Origin: Deuterostichococcus epilithicus
Lineage: Eukaryota > Chlorophyta > Trebouxiophyceae > Prasiolales > Stichococcaceae
Length of the DNA stretch: 64,000 nt
Reading direction: 5' to 3'
Assembly: GCA_033439295.1 (NCBI GenBank)
Contig: JAVTLE010000010.1
Location: 1,364,001-1,428,000 of the forward strand
How positions within the stretch are numbered: the stretch's first letter is position 1; every line of letters begins with the position of its first letter. The translations under genes and the position numbers were made by a program. Under the pieces are notes generated by a model that worked only from the letters and a program-made list of their open reading frames with translations, did not search any database and had not been told where the DNA came from. Of the stretch, positions 1-7,620 are shown piece after piece.

Positions 1-697
1 CGCTTCATGCAGGTCTCCAGCGTCTGCAGTTTTTGCAGTGGACCCAGATCAGCCTCGGCGGGAAGGAGCACATGCCATCCAATATGAAACTTCGTTACAT
101 GCAGGTGCAAGAAGACTGACGCAGGCATTTGCGGACTCACAATGAGCGTCAGGTTCTGGACTTTGACGTGTTTCTGCTTGAAGCGGTTGTTCAAGTATTT
201 AAGAGCCTTATCCGAGCCCCTGCACCGGCAATCTTGAGGAGCATGTTGTCCCGGTCTGATTGTGCGCTGTTGCAGCGAAGATGCGCAGGCGGTGTCAGAT
301 AGGTTTGGTGCGATGAAAGCCAGCCTTCGATTCCAGGGTTGGTCATACCGCAGAGCGATTTGATAACGTAGCCGGACCCGACGCGTCTGACGGCAAGCCT
401 GAAAGCGAAACAAGGGGGTTCGTAACCCACCTGTCGGGCGATCTGTTGATGTACTCCACGATCCTCGCTAGCAGCTGCGGACTGGCGCCGGGACTGGACT
501 CGTTTGTCACCTGATTGATCATGTCCTGCGCACGAGGCCACGGTCACGGTCAAAGCCGGGACACTTTGGTGCGATCTCCAGCGAAGCGCATTGCTGGCCG
601 GTAAATGCCCCGCAAAGCACCGGTGAAACGGGTCCCCATGCACCTGCAGGCCGCCAGCCTTGGCCTTGCTGCCGGTCACGCGCTTCATGGTGTCCAT
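1..697 (-). CDS. VHS-domain protein, TOM1-like (5' part, runs off the window)
   Basis: Partial gene read on the minus strand. Exon 1 (697-644) starts MDTMKRVTGSK and ends at a GTGCAT donor; exon 2 (525-431) encodes DMINQVTNE...LLARIVEYINRSPD; later exons lie near 398-349 and 215-140, the last ending at a GTGAGT donor with KYLNNRFKQKHVKVQNLTLI, followed by TLETCMK at about 24-1. The order 'early helix with a T(N/S)E motif, then INxxPD, then KxVQNLTLxTLETCMK' matches the N-terminal half of VHS domains (TOM1/TOL, GGA, Hrs), which bind ubiquitinated cargo on endosomes. The join between the third and fourth exons is not resolved (two acceptors possible). The GAT domain expected after VHS in TOM1-like proteins lies outside the window, so ENTH-type alternatives stay open. 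Divergent from the nucleolin gene, 383 bp away. Confidence 0.5.
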
Positions 698-1080: not shown

Positions 1081-4000
1081 ATGGCCAAGAAGGCGGACGT
1101 CAAGTCATCCAAGAAGAAGGCCAAGCCGCCACCGGTGTGCATCCTGCATGGCAATGTCTAGTTTACTCTGTTACGGCTGCATGCATTGCGAGCATGCTTC
1201 CCCACTTTCGCAAAGATGTTTAATAGCCTTACCGAGAAACCTGCGCAAGTTGCGAGGGCTGCATGCAGCTTTCCGACACTTCCGGTCGGTCGTGTGTCGG
1301 CTGCAACCAGCCGCCGGCCGGCGTTTCGTGTCCGATCGTCTGTTTGGCACCTGCAAATGCCCGATGGCTTGCATGAGCAGCGTGCGCATGATGGGCGCGC
1401 TCCCCGCCCGGCGGTCTCCAAGCTCTACCTCGCACTGACAATCTGCCCTGATGTGTTGTGCAGCCCTCCAGCTCGTCCGAGGATGAGAGCTCCAGCGACG
1501 AGGAGCCCGCACAGCCTGTGAAGGCGGCGAAGCCTGCAGCCAATAAGAAGGCGAGTCCCTGGCGCAAAGCTGTCAGCTTGCACCTCGCACGAAACCTGTG
1601 CACCACTCTTGCACGCCATCAGCTGCACCTAGTGCTGCCTCCTGCTGGTGCACGTGGATGTCTTTTGCTGCACCTGAGCCCGTCTTTGCGCGTTCAGCCT
1701 CCGAGCGATGACCGACAGTGTCTCACTTCGTGCACCTCACTCAACAGGCCGCCGCCCCGGCGCCAGCAGAGAGCAGCGAGGAGGAGAGCTCCGAGGAGGA
1801 GAGCTCCGACGAGGAGGTGTGCGTTCCTTTGCGTCACTGCATCAAGTGTGCTGGCTCAGCAGCAGTTCGTGTGGCGCGATTGCACCATACCAAGCAGCCG
1901 CCGCCTGCTGTCTTGTTGACAGATTGCTGCAACGGTGCTGAGCATAAGCTCCTTCGTCTCACGTGCTCAATCACCTTGCAAAAACAGGAAGCTCCCCCTG
2001 CCAAGAAGGCAAAGGCAGCGGCTCCGGCCAAGAAGGCGGCTCCGGCTAAGAAGGCAGCAGCAGTCAAGGCAGACTCCAGCTCAGAGGACGAGAGCTCCGA
2101 CGAGGAGGTGCGGCCCAGTCTCTCGTTGCTTTGCACTGTCCAGACTGCTTCTGGCTGTGTTTCCGAATCGTTATCCGTCAGTCGCATGCAAGAAGAGGGG
2201 GCCAAGCTGCGATTGTCACGGGATCTGCGGCAGGAGGCGCCCCCGGCGAAGAAGGCGGCCCCTGCGAAGAAGGCGCCCGCCAAGGCAGACTCCAGCTCCG
2301 AGGAGGAGGAGGAGAGCTCTGAGGAGGAGTCCTCTGACGAGGAGGTGCGGGTGTTCTCTGCAGCCCCCGATGTAGTGCACCTCTGTCCGTCCCCTCTGCT
2401 TGTCTTGCGAGTCGGACGAGCCCACTACGCAGGTCTGGCCCTTGGCAACAGCCTCTTGAGCGTGGCTCCAAGTGTGCGTGGCAAATTTAAGCCGGTTGGA
2501 CCCAACAGGTGCTTATGCGGGCAGAGTGCTCGCTACACTCTGGCGCGGAGCCGTGATATGGAACTCACACCTCACAGCGTGTGTGACTCACAGCTGACGG
2601 GATGCACCCTTCCCTGCCGCAGGAGGCAGCCCCCGCAGCCAAGGCAGCGCCCGCAGCCAAGAAGGCGGCCGCGGCCAAGGCGGCCCCCGCCAAGAAGGCT
2701 CCAGCAGCGGCAGCCGACTCCTCCGACGAGGAGGAGTCCTCAGACGAGGAGGAGGCAGCAGCCCCCGCAGCCAAGAAGGCGGCGGCTGCCAAGCCGGCCG
2801 CCATGGAGGTTGACGACGACGAGTCCTCGGAGGAGGAGTCCTCAGACGAGGAGGCCCCGGCACCCGCACAGGTATGCTGCCCCTGGTTGTTTGTGTGCTG
2901 CTGCTGCTGCCATTGCGCATGCGTGGGGTTTGGGAGTGAGTGCAGTGTTTCGCCAAGGTCTTGTCGCATTGCATCTGCTGCCGGTAAGAGTGCACCGCAG
3001 GCCGGCCGCCAGACCCCCTCAAAGTGCGGGTTGACTTTGGCAGCTGCGCTTTAGCATGCTTTCGAGATAGCGCCTCTAATCCCTCTCCCGCAAGCAGGCA
3101 GCCAAGGCGCGGGCAAAGGAGATGGCAGCGGCGGAGGAGGACTCCGACGAGGAGGACTCTGACGAGGAGGAGTCTGAGGAGGAGGAGTCTGAGGAGGAGG
3201 CGCCTGCACCCAAGGCCAAGGCCAGCAAGCGCAAGGCCGAGGAGGTGCGTCGCTGCAGAACTGTTTAGTTCTGGTTAGGAGGTTTGGCGTCTCTGCTGCG
3301 TTTCAACCGGCGCAGCAAGCGCCTCAGCCTGAGCTCGAAATGCATGGCGCATCATGTAGACCGCAAGAGTAGACTGGCTGTGATGAAGCATTCCCCGCTT
3401 CGGGGTCTTCCTGGCCCTCCCATCTGCTACCAAGCAGACACCGGGGTTCTGAGCCATGTCTTCATGTGTCACGGCAGCTTCCTAACATCTGGACAGCATC
3501 AGCCTGCATGACCATGTTCAGCAAAGAGCCGTGATGAAGCATTCCCCACTTTGGGGTCTTCCTGACCCTCACATCTGCTCTTGAGCAGACACCGGGGTTC
3601 TGAGCTTTTGTGATGTTGCTCCAATGGCGCTTTGGTTTGTACAGCATCGATGTGGGCGCTGCAGGGCTGCATGAGCACATGGCTGTGATGAAGCATTCCC
3701 CACTTCGGGGTCTTCCTGACCCCCCCATCTGCTACCGAGCAGACGCGCAGGGGTTCTGAGCCTTGTCATGTGTTTGCTGTATCAACTGCTGAATGGGCTG
3801 AGATGACAGACACACCTCAACGAGCACTTCCTGCGCTCTGCCTTCTGAACCCCTTTGGGTTGCGGATCCCAGGTGTCCTGAGCCCTGTTGTCAGCTGTCT
3901 CGCACATGTGGTCCTTCAGGCCGTTGACAGACAGGCACAGGTCGGCTGTGATGAAACCACATTACAACATCGGGGCACATCTCTGCCTCCTTGTTACCGA

Positions 4001-7000
4001 TGGATCTATCTCCCAGAGGCGGAACACGAGACCCTGAGCCGCCGTCTGCTACCCGTTGCCTGCACCGGAAACGATTTCACAGCGATTACCAACCAGCCAT
4101 TTAAGAAGCTTTCCAATCATTCTTGCGACCGCAGGTGGAGGCGACTCCCAAGGCGGCAAAGAAGGCCAAGGCGGACGCGGCGGCGACGCCTGCGACCGGC
4201 GGCGGCGACGACTCCGCGGCGCAGGGTAGCTCCACGGTGTTCATCAAGAACCTGCCCTGGTCCGCCACCGACGAGGAGCTCGCCAACTTTTTCGGAGAGT
4301 GCGGAGAGGTCACCGAAGTCCGCATCGGTGCGTTTTCCTACTGGAGCCTTACATTTTCCCTACTGTGGCTTTCACAGGGTTTGTAACTACCTCTTGTGCG
4401 TGCTTCTCGTTGGGGAGGGATTGCGGATTGCAGGTCTTGCTTGAACCCAGGCGGGCTCTGATGAAGAACCCCCAATGCCAGGACGCTTCCTGCGCCTGCT
4501 GTTACCTCTTCATCTTTGAGGAAGAACTCGGGGTCTCTGAGCCTCGTCATAGTGTCTGCGAGCTCGTTTCTGGGCATGTAGCGTCGGTCAGCACAGCTAG
4601 GATGACCGCCACCCCCACATCGGGACGCTTCCTGCTCCTGTGACCTCAATTTTGATGAAGCTGGCGGGGGTCTGAGCCTCGCCGCAGCCGCCTTTTGCTG
4701 GGTTGAAAGCACAGAGTGCATGGGTTGCAATTGTAGCCAGGAGGATAGTTTAGGATAGAACGGCTAGGATGATAATTTATCCCATATCAGGATGCTTCCT
4801 GCTCCTGCGTCCTCTTTTGAGGAAGCCTGGGGTTCTGAGCCTTGTCATAGCCGCGTGTTGCGGTGCCAGATTGCATTAATTAGTAAAACATTTTCGCAAC
4901 GCACGGCTAGGATGATACCAAGTTCCGCACCAGGACGCTTCCTGCTCCTGCATACTCACTTTTGAGGAAAACTGGTTTCTGAGCCTCGCCAAGGCGCCTT
5001 TTGTGGGGCCAAAAAGCATGAATTGCTGGTTCCAGCAGCCTCTGCTAGAGAACTGTAGTAGTGCACGGCTAGGATGAGACCCACCCTGCATCAGGATGCT
5101 TCCTGCTCCTGCGTCCTCACTTTTCAGGAAGAAACCGGGGTGCTGAGCCTCGCAAAGAAACTTTTGTGCATTGACTAGTCAAGCATGCACGGCGTTGATG
5201 ACACCCACCCCAACCCAGGATGCTTCCTGCTCCTGTGTCCCCACCTTATGAGGAAGAAAGCCGGGGTGCTGAGCCTTGCTGCAGCTTGTGGAATACTCTC
5301 TAGGACAACATTGGTTCGACCAGCACGGCCAGGATGAATGCCACCCCATACCAGGATGCTTCCTGCTCCTGTGTCCTGACCATTGAGGAAAAGCCTATGG
5401 GGCTCAGAGCCTGTGCTAGTGTTGCAATCTGAAACAGCAATGAAGACACGCACCCTGTTCAAAGGACGCTTCCTGCGCCTGACAGACCGACCTCAGTTGT
5501 CGGAGACCCGGGTTCTTGAGCTGCCATGTGCCTGGTTGTAGGGTTCAAAATGGCCGAGATGAACAACACCCCTCACTAGGACGCTTCCTGCTCCTGCTGT
5601 GCCGATGCCAAGAGGCGGAAAGCCGGGGTTCTGAGCCTTCTGCTGTCTCTTTCCCGGATCACACCCAGTTCCGAACGAGCTGCCTTCAAGCCGTTCTCAT
5701 GTTTTGTCCCCCGCAGCGTACGACAACGAGACGGGCAAGGCCCGCGGCTTTGCGCACGTGGCGTTTGCCGACACCAAGGGCGCCGCCAACGCCATCGCGA
5801 TGACTGGCACTGAGCTGGGTGGCCGGCAGGTGTACATCGACTCTGCCCGCGAGCGCGGCAGCGCTCCCCCCAGCGGCGGCTTTGGCGGCGGCGCAACCCC
5901 CGGCACAGGTGCAGGCCCCTCTTGCAGCGGGCTGTCGTGTTCCGTCGCTTTGCACCCGTGTGCCATCGCCTCTGGAGAGTCTCCTGCCTGCAGCCAGACC
6001 TGCTGTCGCTTGGCAGCCTGATGAGTGGCACCTCCGCAGCTTAGGAGCACTGACGCTCGCACTCCCCTGCCGCACGCAGGCGGTCGCGAGACGGACGGCA
6101 CCACCATCTTCGTGAAGGGCTTCAGCCGTGAGTTTGGCGGCGAGGACGAGGTTCGGCAGGCACTCACAGAGGCCTTTGCAGACTGCGGCGAGGTGTCGCA
6201 GGTGACGTTCGAATGGGGGAATTTTGAGAGTTTGTGCACATCTGAAGGGTCCCCTGCCGCTTGCTGCCTAATGCCGCAGCCGTCCTGTCTGCTCAACAGC
6301 TGGGAGCAGCAGTGCGCATGGTCTGGCATGCTTGCTTGCTTGAGGCACGTTTCTGCAGCATGCTGCGCTGTGTTCAACGAGGTGCTGTTGGTTGGCGCCG
6401 ACCGCTGACGCCTTGCAATGCTTTCCCCCGCCGCAGGTCCGGCTACCGACAGACAGGGAGACAGGGGAGCTGAAGGGCATCGCTTTCATCGAGTTTGGCA
6501 GCTCAGAGGCCAAGGTGGGTCGTTGTTCTTGCAGCTTTCAAATCTGAGCTGAACTCACTCGCAACTGCTTGCACCCTCACAGGGTTACCTACTAAGTCAA
6601 CCAGTATGTCAAAAGTCCAGCATGGTTGACAAGCCCTGAGTTCTGCATGTGGCTATGACGAAGCTAGCACCTCACCAAGGGGCACTTCCTGCTCCCCAGC
6701 ACCCGATGCCTTCAGAGGCTGACACCCGAGGTCCTGAGCCATTGCACGCCACGTTGTTCTTGAAGAAAACCTGCCTAGCTGGCCCTGATGATTCTTGCCT
6801 CACTTACTGGTGCCTCCTGCACCCGCTTATCTGCCATTTGCGCAGACACCTGAGGTTCTGAGCCACTGCTGTGTATGTGTCCTGTCTGTCAATGGGCCCT
6901 GATGATTCCCACCCTCGCCCAGGGGCACTTCCTGGCCCCTTGTTTCTGCCTTTGCAGATGCTGAGGTTCTGAGCCCATTGCTGCTGTGTTGCCGCAGGCA

Positions 7001-7620
7001 AAGTCGCTAGAGATGGACGGCGCAGAGGCGGCGGGCGGCTGGCTGAAGGTGGACGGCAACGTCTCTGGCGGCGGCGGCCGGGGCGGCNGCGNCGGCCGGG
7101 GCGGCGGAAGGGGCGGCGGTCGTGGCTTTGGTGGCCGCGACGGCGGGGGAAGGTTTGGCGGCAGGGGCGGCGGCCGCGGCGGGGGCCGCGACTTTGGCGG
7201 CCGCGGAGGAGGTGCGCCCTTTTCCTGGTGTCTGCTTCTTGTTCTTGTTCTCACGCGGCGGGGCTGCTGCGGGTTTAGCCGCCCGCAGCCGCCTGACGCA
7301 CCACTGGGGCGCCAGTCCTTTCAGGGCACAACATGGCGTATGTCCCAGCGTCAACGCCGCAGAGCAGTGCCCCGGTCGCAGGCCGCATTCTGCGGTCTCC
7401 CGGGCACGGCACGAGTGCTGATTCCATCGCAGTGGGGAGCTGCGTCGCGGCGCTTACCCTTTCTGTTCTACCCAGCACTCGACACTTTTCCTGCACTGCA
7501 GGCCGCGGCGGCAGGGGCGGGCGCGACGGAGGCAGGGGAGGCCGCGGCCCCAGCAAGCCCCGCATCAGCATCAACCCTTCAGGCGGCGGCACGGGATCTA
7601 AGAAAACCTTCGACGATTAA
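1081..7620 (+). CDS. Nucleolin-like protein (acidic repeats, two RRMs, RGG tail)
   Basis: Nucleolar RNA-binding protein of rRNA transcription and processing (plant NUC1, yeast NSR1/gar2 type). Thirteen exons give about 584 residues: 1081-1134, 1464-1550, 1748-1816, 1988-2107, 2234-2344, 2623-2871, 3098-3244, 4135-4327, 5717-5908, 6080-6201, 6437-6514, 6998-7211, 7502-7620. The first seven, all in phase 0, encode Lys-Ala stretches alternating with acidic Ser blocks such as SSEDESSDEE. RRM1 spans exons 8-9 (STVFIKNLPW, RNP1 ARGFAHVAF); RRM2 spans exons 10-12 (TTIFVKGF, RNP1 LKGIAFIEF). The tail is Gly/Arg-rich RGG and ends KKTFDD. Exon 2 ends at a GCGAGT donor, a GC-AG intron that keeps the frame. 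Two N bases (7088, 7092) fall in the RGG region. Introns 7, 8 and 11 carry snoRNA-like elements listed separately. A TGTAA signal follows the stop by about 95 nt. Confidence 0.93.
3376..3455 (+). ncRNA. Box C/D snoRNA-like element 1 (nucleolin intron 7)
   Basis: C box TGATGA at 3381-3386 and D box CTGA at 3449-3452 are flanked by GGC and GCC that can pair as the short terminal stem. The sequence before the D box is ACACCGGGGTT. About 80 nt, a normal C/D size. Target unknown. Confidence 0.65.
3524..3609 (+). ncRNA. Box C/D snoRNA-like element 2 (intron 7)
   Basis: C box TGATGA 3532-3537, D box CTGA 3600-3603, an internal CTGA (D'-like) at 3562-3565. The flanks AAGAGC and GCTTTT pair over six positions, and differ in sequence from element 1 while keeping a stem, which is the pattern expected of a functional terminal helix. 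Confidence 0.7.
3677..3766 (+). ncRNA. Box C/D snoRNA-like element 3 (intron 7)
   Basis: C box TGATGA 3686-3691, D box CTGA 3756-3759; flanks ACATGGC and GCCTTGT pair with one mismatch. Body is nearly the same as elements 1 and 2, including the CCCCAC-TTCGGGG segment and GGGGTT before the D box. Confidence 0.68.
3795..3885 (+). ncRNA. Box C/D snoRNA-like element 4, diverged (intron 7)
   Basis: GGGCT flank, C-like box GAGATGA (3800-3806), D box CTGA 3878-3881 followed by GCCC; an internal CTGA lies at 3845-3848. The C box has one change from the consensus, so function is less sure. Confidence 0.5.
3954..4041 (+). ncRNA. Box C/D snoRNA-like element 5 (intron 7)
   Basis: C box TGATGA 3959-3964 after GGCTG; D box CTGA 4034-4037 before GCC. 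Its body between the boxes is unlike elements 1-3, so if it is a guide it has a different target. Confidence 0.6.
4453..4543 (+). ncRNA. Box C/D snoRNA-like element 6 (intron 8)
   Basis: GGGCTC flank, C box TGATGA 4459-4464, D box CTGA 4537-4540, GCC flank. First of nine tandem elements in this intron that share GGACGCTTCCTG in the middle and GAGGAAG before the D box. Confidence 0.65.
4595..4679 (+). ncRNA. Box C/D snoRNA-like element 7 (intron 8)
   Basis: C-like box GGATGA 4600-4605 (one change), D box CTGA 4672-4675, and a perfect internal TGATGA (C'-like) at 4653-4658. Middle GGGACGCTTCCTGCTCCTG is shared with its neighbours. Confidence 0.58.
4762..4842 (+). ncRNA. Box C/D snoRNA-like element 8 (intron 8)
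   Basis: Flank GGCTA, C-like GGATGA 4767-4772, D box CTGA 4835-4838 then GCC. GGGGTT precedes the D box, as in elements 1-3 and 14. Confidence 0.55.
4905..4986 (+). ncRNA. Box C/D snoRNA-like element 9 (intron 8)
   Basis: Flank CGGCTA, C-like GGATGA 4910-4915, D box CTGA 4979-4982 then GCC. Shares CAGGACGCTTCCTGCTCCTG with its neighbours. Confidence 0.55.
5067..5150 (+). ncRNA. Box C/D snoRNA-like element 10 (intron 8)
   Basis: Flank CGGCTA, C-like GGATGA 5072-5077, D box CTGA 5143-5146 then GCC. GGGGTG stands before the D box. Confidence 0.55.
5190..5276 (+). ncRNA. Box C/D snoRNA-like element 11 (intron 8)
   Basis: Flank CGGCG, perfect C box TGATGA 5196-5201, D box CTGA 5269-5272 then GCC. 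Otherwise like element 10. Confidence 0.62.
5326..5412 (+). ncRNA. Box C/D snoRNA-like element 12, decayed D box (intron 8)
   Basis: C-like GGATGA 5332-5337; the D position reads CAGA (5405-5408) instead of CTGA, still followed by GCC. Probably a decaying copy of the family. Confidence 0.4.
5435..5524 (+). ncRNA. Box C/D snoRNA-like element 13, decayed (intron 8)
   Basis: Body is recognisable (AAAGGACGCTTCCTGCGCCTG) but the C position reads TGAAGA (5441-5446) and the D position TTGA (5516-5519). Listed as a relic of the array. Confidence 0.3.
5551..5638 (+). ncRNA. Box C/D snoRNA-like element 14 (intron 8)
   Basis: Flank TGGCC, C-like GAGATGA 5556-5562, D box CTGA 5631-5634 then GCC. AGCCGGGGTT precedes the D box. 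Last element of intron 8, about 80 nt before the acceptor. Confidence 0.52.
6650..6741 (+). ncRNA. Box C/D snoRNA-like element 15, weak C box (intron 11)
   Basis: Flank TGGC, C position TATGACGA (6654-6661), D box CTGA 6734-6737 then GCC. Middle GGGGCACTTCCTGCTCCC is related to the intron 8 family. Confidence 0.45.
6781..6866 (+). ncRNA. Box C/D snoRNA-like element 16 (intron 11)
   Basis: Flank GGCCC, C box TGATGA 6786-6791, D box CTGA 6858-6861 followed by GCCA. CACCTGAGGTT precedes the D box. Confidence 0.6.
6895..6977 (+). ncRNA. Box C/D snoRNA-like element 17 (intron 11)
   Basis: Flank GGGCCC, C box TGATGA 6900-6905, D box CTGA 6969-6972 followed by GCCC, giving a GGGC/GCCC terminal stem. 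It ends about 20 nt before the intron acceptor, closer than is usual for a spliced-out C/D RNA. Confidence 0.62.

Follow-up and report, generated by a model that had tools for sequence, protein, structure and literature searches.

Box C/D RNAs are usually regarded as guides with an open interior. Tandem units with the boxes of such RNAs fill three introns of a nucleolin-like gene in the green alga Deuterostichococcus epilithicus, and the question raised by this locus is whether they should be read as guides or as something else. The window analysed here is the whole stretch of 64,000 nt (contig JAVTLE010000010.1, positions 1,364,001-1,428,000, forward strand). The gene model (Table 1) was built from the open frame and GT/GC-AG splice sites. 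Its product carries RRM_1 in two stretches, and the best named homologue, at 60% identity, is Nucleolin 2 of Coccomyxa sp. Obi, which agrees with the host assignment of an earlier sequence-only reading. That reading had placed about 17 C/D-like units in introns 7, 8 and 11, and all 17 are present there. Their length, given as 80-90 nt, was near the mark, although with flanks the units are slightly longer (88-105 nt). Outside the window, five further units are found in one intron of an eIF5 gene on another contig, for a family total of 22. All 22 are intronic and are carried by the sense strand of their host gene. We favour, at a probability of roughly 0.55, the reading that they represent a family of box C/D RNAs (~80-100 nt) that is encoded in introns, has expanded locally and has a structured and probably non-guide interior.

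Table 1. Host gene, array introns and C/D units of the window, with scores in covariance model R1 (units marked "held out" were not used for its training).
Feature	Positions	Strand	R1 (bits)	Remarks
Nucleolin-like gene	1081..7620	+		13 exons, 585 residues
Intron 7	3245..4134	+		a1-a5 (n=5); gene model
Intron 8	4328..5716	+		b1-b9 (n=9); gene model
Intron 11	6515..6997	+		c1-c3 (n=3); gene model
a1	3373..3460	+	55.9	held out
a1 box C hexamer	from 3381	+
a1 box D	3449-3452	+
a2	3524..3611	+	56.9	held out
a3	3678..3767	+	59.6	held out
a4	3793..3889	+	38.8	held out
a5	3941..4045	+	21.9	held out; divergent, without UUCCU loop
b1	4451..4548	+	69.7
b2	4592..4683	+	78.3
b3	4759..4846	+	81.2
b4	4902..4990	+	80.8
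b5	5064..5154	+	89.2
b6	5188..5280	+	90.5
b7	5324..5416	+	83.6	box D = CAGA
b8	5433..5527	+	42.5	held out; divergent, C = TGAAGA, D = TTGA
b9	5549..5642	+	79.4
c1	6648..6745	+	62.5
c2	6778..6869	+	72.8	loop CUCCU
c3	6892..6980	+	74.2	17 nt short of intron 11 end

C/D snoRNAs have RUGAUGA (box C) close to the 5′ end and CUGA (box D) close to the 3′ end, and the boxes of the units correspond to their first description as TGATGA or a one-base variant and CTGA at these two places. TGATGA is found in 8 of the 17 window units and a one-base variant in the other nine (GGATGA in 5, AGATGA in 2, TGAAGA and TGACGA in 1 each), while box D is CTGA in 15/17, the exceptions being b7 and b8. In the whole family the respective counts are 9/22, 13/22 (GGATGA in 7/22) and 20/22. 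The columns of the terminal inverted repeat (stem I) are 85.2% paired. That these flanks change in sequence while remaining able to pair, as had been proposed, was borne out by swapping strands among units: each unit's own flanks pair better, with 3 of 2000 permutations as good, or 61 of 5000 when swaps were confined to the same intron. The boxes fit a kink-turn, whose protruding base is U in 13/22 units, G in 7/22 and A in 2/22. The protruding uridine is described as invariable (PMC8162545), and the nine units with G or A speak against the favoured reading.

The intronic sense location of every unit, and the closeness of the end of c3 to the 3′ splice site (17 nt), would also suit cis-acting elements whose kink-turns act within the pre-mRNA (in splicing, retention or protein autoregulation) and are not released. 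We consider this improbable: intronic C/D RNAs are processed from just such a layout, with a terminal stem adjoining both boxes, as every copy has it, and two unrelated hosts with up to nine copies per intron would be superfluous for a cis switch.

Model R1, trained on 11 window units, recovered the six held out (a1-a5 and b8) with E-values from 1.4e-14 to 6.8e-4 and, on both strands of the 64-kb window, identified no further place at E ≤ 1. A search of the window for the loose motif GATGA-18..23-CTTCCTG gave 13 occurrences, always within the array introns (shuffle mean 0.06, n=100). Units are alike across introns and host genes (pairwise z 5.2-11.2, within and between arrays) while spacers are unlike (-0.6 to 1.8). 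The shuffle z was used here because aligned-column identity, discarded as a measure, is 0.73-0.82 for units and spacers alike, the aligner gapping out mismatches. The expected conservation of boxes over spacers holds among paralogues of one genome. Units a1-a3 group together (support 0.995), and a5 and b8 are decayed, with 45.0 and 49.8 bits in a scoring of all 22 units against 55.4-84.1 in the other 20, in keeping with the local birth and death suggested earlier. Variable and partly degenerate copies would also be seen if the units were functionless, as tandem repeats evolving neutrally or as mobile sequence. That explanation is disfavoured and we give it very little credence, since spacers lost their similarity while units retained boxes, loop and pairing, and the genome-wide patterns led to just two loci, both intronic and in sense orientation.

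Four genome-wide patterns, whose matches were scored in part, disclosed no third locus; note that they are blind to family members with a differing loop and end. Pattern GGNNGCTTCCTGCNCCTG with one mismatch gave 70 matches, of which 30 were cut out as loci (11 of them in the two arrays); among the 19 loci scored only L017, within the eIF5 array, exceeded 15.6 bits, and the 40 matches without a locus, including unit d3, were left unscored. For pattern GRGGTNCTGAGCC (39 matches, 12 in arrays) all 27 others were scored, the best reaching 13.2 bits. The third pattern gave 57 matches, 15 in arrays, with 11.9 bits as the best of the 40 scored among the 42 others, and the fourth gave 7, five in the array and two unscored. 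A viral-contig collection yielded 14 pattern stretches, the best of which (20.0 bits) lies within a long ORF and was taken as chance; a query with the Coccomyxa nucleolin detected no relative in that collection.

The feature that was overlooked earlier is the interior of the units. Comparison of the 22 sequences supports a common predicted fold in which the terminal stem and the C/D kink-turn are followed by helix P2 and then by hairpins P3 and P4. P3 ends in a loop, C[UUCCU]G, with UUCCU kept in 18/22 units and the closing C-G pair in 20/22, and P4 is variable in sequence. The structure tested was drawn by hand from the units, and the strand-swap test provided an alignment-free control. Permutations as good as the native strands numbered 0/2000 for P3, 0/2000 for P2 and 1/2000 for P4, and 1, 15 and 64 of 5000, respectively, when swaps were made within introns only. 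Paired cells amount to 80.0% against 74.4 in shuffles (0/500) and the covariation score is 0.271 against 0.185 in shuffles (0/500), with slid controls at 0.119-0.155. The strands of P3 co-vary at pairs 32-50 and 35-47. Two count measures were weak (77 and 271 of 500 shuffles in the first test, 8 and 31 in a later one), and the folding-energy z of the interior, -1.39 on average, is modest in single units (-2.73 to 0.09). An alignment of the 17 window units by MAFFT with RNAalifold gave a different, poor structure (10 pairs, -3.5 kcal/mol) and was dropped because it did not bring the hairpins into register. The conserved structured interior argues against an ordinary guide reading.

Such a guide reading would have the units direct 2′-O-methylation through an antisense element before a degenerate D′ box, in the 5′ strand of P3, the hairpin being a by-product and several isoforms sharing a single rRNA site, or a few, as their target. 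D′/C′-like boxes are indeed readable in part of the units (CTGC/CTGA-like after the loop, then TGATGA or TGAGGA in 7/22), a pair that would suit an ordinary double-guide C/D RNA and speaks against a structured non-guide one. Families of many guide isoforms are moreover usual in Chlamydomonas and plants, according to PMC7671301. Candidate windows were compared with Arabidopsis 18S rRNA, a partial foreign LSU with 5.8S (L078) and the alga's own U2, U5 and U6; no rRNA of the alga itself turned up in its assembly. Complementarity before the D box, which spans 10-21 nt in a methylation guide and which the sequence-only reading had proposed to look for, did not appear: against the foreign rRNA and own snRNAs 0/22 windows reach p < 0.05 (Fisher 0.84), no better than shuffled ones. 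Five of the 22 D′ windows (b1, b3, b4, b7, d2) have p < 0.05 against the same foreign rRNA and own snRNAs (Fisher 2.7e-4), and some of their variants are transitions that preserve G-U pairing to one and the same stretch. However, all five match one common 12-nt stretch (L078:1526-1537) and, given this single stretch and the common ancestry of the units, count about once. The match was discounted, as the stretch falls within a variable insert that the Rfam LSU consensus lacks, and the rRNA is that of an unrelated foreign eukaryote. A few units also fit GAAGUGUUCG in 18S helix 44 beside D′ (a4 over 10 nt with p = 0.07, and partly b and c units), which we take as a lead only. On these comparisons, made with foreign rRNA and own snRNA targets, a methylation-guide role is not supported.

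The guide region is, in addition, not free of internal pairing, as seen in the swap tests of P2 and P3, and the strands of P3 change in concert. Because both would-be guide sites are tied up in helices, we regard ordinary methylation guides as rather unlikely. Guides for rRNA base acetylation like yeast snR4/snR45, which use bipartite antisense elements, seem quite improbable, as we know of no multi-copy tandem arrays of such guides. C/D RNAs of this type do exist and were formerly counted as orphans (PMC8162545).

If the units are structured non-guide RNAs, the spliced intron would be debranched and then trimmed, the SNU13/15.5K-NOP58-fibrillarin core binding the kink-turn and fixing the RNA ends. 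In the mature RNP an arm may expose the P3 loop at its end, as a contact site for a partner, either a protein or an AGGAA(G)-bearing RNA. The RNP would most likely not be an ordinary 2′-O-methylation guide but a non-canonical one, whether structural, similar to U3 and U8, or of some other kind. The many copies, originating by local duplication and decay, would serve dosage. A bolder and tentative proposal, which we think possible but doubtful, is a new kind of C/D RNP: multi-copy, non-guide, with a three-way-junction body, with the conserved C[UUCCU]G loop as its working part. That loop would contact either a protein of ribosome assembly or pre-rRNA, and through its place in the introns of nucleolin and eIF5 the RNA would follow the expression of both genes in dose. 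In any case, 22 paralogues of one genome with a conserved fold and one loop, and no recognisable guide, are a natural structure alignment, and one loop with two host genes gives a clear handle on a possible non-guide role.

Vertebrate nucleolin introns host U20, U23 and U82, and the host gene family is the same as that of the algal array. The RNAs differ: no Rfam model matched at its gathering score in the window or in the eIF5 array, the best sub-threshold snoRNA in the arrays was SNORD33 (22.2 bits for a cut-off of 44), and U20, U23 and U82 were absent even from a lenient list. The ancient link, one of two possibilities named earlier, found no support. Nucleolin as a common host is better explained by translation and ribosome genes serving as hosts, since the family is also housed in an eIF5 intron. 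In this green alga, too, nucleolin houses predicted C/D RNAs, and as these have no match to the vertebrate ones, this points to repeated use of such host genes rather than to inheritance of the RNAs.

The intronic C/D clusters of Chlamydomonas, Ostreococcus and plants, as described in PMC7671301 and PMC5122169, share with the present arrays the boxes, terminal inverted repeats and families of isoforms. The units differ from them by a conserved two-hairpin interior in which no guide window to foreign rRNA or own snRNAs was found and, relative to those descriptions, by GGATGA replacing TGATGA in 7/22 and by forming one family instead of a mixed cluster. The snR4/snR45-type RNAs, in the account of PMC8162545, are C/D RNAs without a methylation target, as the units would be. 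The alga's own U3 is encoded at two other loci, and U3 models had no match in the nucleolin or eIF5 arrays. The units are less than half as long as U3, lie in introns and occur in many copies, and box A, box B or a hinge was not identified in them. U8 is a structured C/D RNA that does not methylate. The same is reported of U3 (PMC8162545), and with both RNAs the units would have in common a kink-turn C/D core, a structured interior and a role other than methylation.

The claim of the sequence-only reading that introns 7, 8 and 11 of the nucleolin gene carry about 17 box C/D-like elements was confirmed by an intron scan, which delimited 17 units, and was enlarged by a second array. Genome details and unit locations are given in the table. 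R1, a covariance model trained on 11 of these units, recovered all six held-out ones (a1-a5, b8), and its search of the whole window returned no place besides the 17 units at E <= 1. The motif GATGA-18..23-CTTCCTG occurs 13 times in the window (0.06 expected), always inside the arrays. No Rfam family was found in the window at its own cut-off; at a lenient threshold the array region gave just two matches, to SNORD33 (22.2 bits against a cut-off of 44) and to RsmV (15.4 bits against 100). The box D of unit c3 (CTGA, 6969-6972) lies about 25 nt upstream of the end of intron 11 (6997), and its bases could double as the branch point of this intron.

Location of the C/D units and of their host genes (L005, excised eIF5 locus in its own numbering; the window is G000:C9:1364001-1428000 of the 46.8 Mb, 21-contig genome G000)
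Feature	Coordinates	Orientation	Remarks
Nucleolin-like gene	window 1081-7620		13 exons, 585-residue protein
Nucleolin intron 7	window 3245-4134		units a1-a5
Nucleolin intron 8	window 4328-5716		units b1-b9
Nucleolin intron 11	window 6515-6997		units c1-c3
eIF5 intron	L005 4992-6245	sense	five d units; intron bounds drawn by eye

In the nucleolin-like protein, an acidic serine-rich N-terminus and a glycine-arginine tail flank two stretches of RRM; the exon of the tail contains two N bases, at 7088 and 7092. The best match among named homologues is Coccomyxa sp. Obi Nucleolin 2 (60% identity across 96% of the searched RRM region), followed by Auxenochlorella proteins (53%), which indicates a green alga, probably of the trebouxiophytes. 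The second array is the only additional place found by a DNA search of the alga's own genome, and R1 identifies five units there. Its host is eIF5, as assigned by PF01873 (2.3e-28) and by solved eIF5 structures (1.6e-31). All 22 units are in the sense of their host gene. Four genome-wide patterns yielded no third locus, most but not all of their other matches having been scored with the models. The spacer between d2 and d3 (L005 5391-5451) has C-box-like pieces (TGATGA, GGTGCTAGGATG) that receive no score from the models and are perhaps a decayed unit. By eye, a later eIF5 intron shows a sequence of about 100 nt in direct repetition (AGTTGTCTTGAGCACGCGAAGGC...; L005 ~7110-7330).

Each unit is closed by stem I (GGC/GCC, with variable pairs outside), inside which come a three-base bulge and the tandem G.A that belongs to a C/D kink-turn. 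Next to the boxes, on their inner side, is helix P2, and beyond it are P3 and P4 as neighbours. The P3 hairpin has six pairs, with the loop UUCCU in 18 of the 22 units and a C-G closing pair in 20; its stem reads, for instance, AGGA-GC/GC-UCCU, AGGC-GC/GC-GCCU, GGGUC/GACCC or GGUGC/GCACC. Folding gives P4, to name two cases, as UCUGC/GCAGA in the a units and CCUC/GAGG in b3.

The fold was assessed on the 22 sequences against 500 shuffles: 80.0% of cells are paired (74.4 shuffled, 0/500 as good), the covariation score is 0.271 (0.185, 0/500), 13 pairs are changed on both sides (9.3, 8/500) and 36 further pair types occur (31.9, 31/500). Slid structures used as control pair 39.9-53.3% of cells and score 0.119-0.155 for covariation. 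The outcome for the first 11 sequences was mixed (cells paired 0/500, covariation 2/500, both-side changes 77/500, pair types 271/500). An alignment-free test paired the 5′ strand of one unit with the 3′ strands of others. Own strands pair better than swapped ones in P3 and P2 (0/2000 permutations each), stem I (3/2000) and P4 (1/2000), and also when swaps are confined within an intron as a control for relatedness of the units (P3 1/5000, P2 15/5000, stem I 61/5000, P4 64/5000); the structure and strand limits were drawn after inspection of the units, which favours the tested structure to some degree. Relative to dinucleotide shuffles, the interior has greater average stability, with a mean z of -1.39 (from -2.73 to 0.09); for whole units the value is -0.88.

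Unit-unit similarity within and between arrays reaches group mean z values of 5.2-11.2, against -0.6 to 1.8 for spacers; plain identity over aligned columns does not separate the two. In a FastTree tree a1-a3 cluster with support 0.995, the eIF5 units are not one clade and supports are mostly low. This similarity and the tree fit a history of local duplication, decay (a5, b8) and at least one move between host genes.

Nuclear rDNA is apparently absent from the assembly: two exact 18S patterns had no match, and the 5.8S model gave a single sub-threshold match (31.5 bits, cut-off 42; contig C21). The complementarity of the stretches before boxes D and D′, which the sequence-only reading proposed to search, was therefore examined with the alga's own U2, U5 and U6 and with stand-in rRNAs, namely a provisional Arabidopsis 18S sequence and partial eukaryotic LSU and 5.8S from the contaminated MAG record L078. 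Against shuffled windows, none of the 22 D windows matched these targets at p < 0.05 (Fisher 0.84), while five D′ windows did (b1, b3, b4, b7, d2; Fisher 2.7e-4). These five fall on a single stretch, L078:1526-1537, which forms an insert with respect to the Rfam LSU consensus, and are counted as chance, which does not prove absence of a guide target. L077 and L078, labelled Clostridium and Pseudomonadales MAGs, carry eukaryotic rRNA genes as contamination. The genome has U3 at two loci (112 and 110.3 bits to the plant U3 family), and at two places U5 and U2 snRNA genes are neighbours in the same orientation, at a distance of about 1.7 kb (G000:C12:2857578-2859551, G000:C7:1914925-1916951).

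C/D RNPs are nucleated by SNU13 from a kink-turn core with paired ends (PMC8162545), and a unit that has these hallmarks would naturally be expected to leave its intron as a stable RNP. Conserved helices enclose both windows in which a guide would sit, so that the P3 loop is the remaining conserved single-stranded element; it is inferred to be the contact site. A partner recognized by base-pairing should contain AGGAA(G), too short a sequence to identify it by.

No description of such an array was found in titles and abstract openings of a literature largely outside subscription journals, and one may already exist in print. Ostreococcus is reported to have intronic and clustered snoRNAs, with 17 orphans and some unusual structures, multi-gene families make up most snoRNAs of Chlamydomonas and plants (PMC7671301), and land-plant snoRNA families are, with few exceptions, unrecognisable in green algae (PMC5122169). 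Given that C/D features are present and the guide features tested are either lacking or ambiguous, we place the units among the box C/D RNAs as a putative variant. They differ in one respect from the canonical kink-turn, in which the protruding uridine is called invariable (PMC8162545): in 9 of the 22 units this base is G or A.
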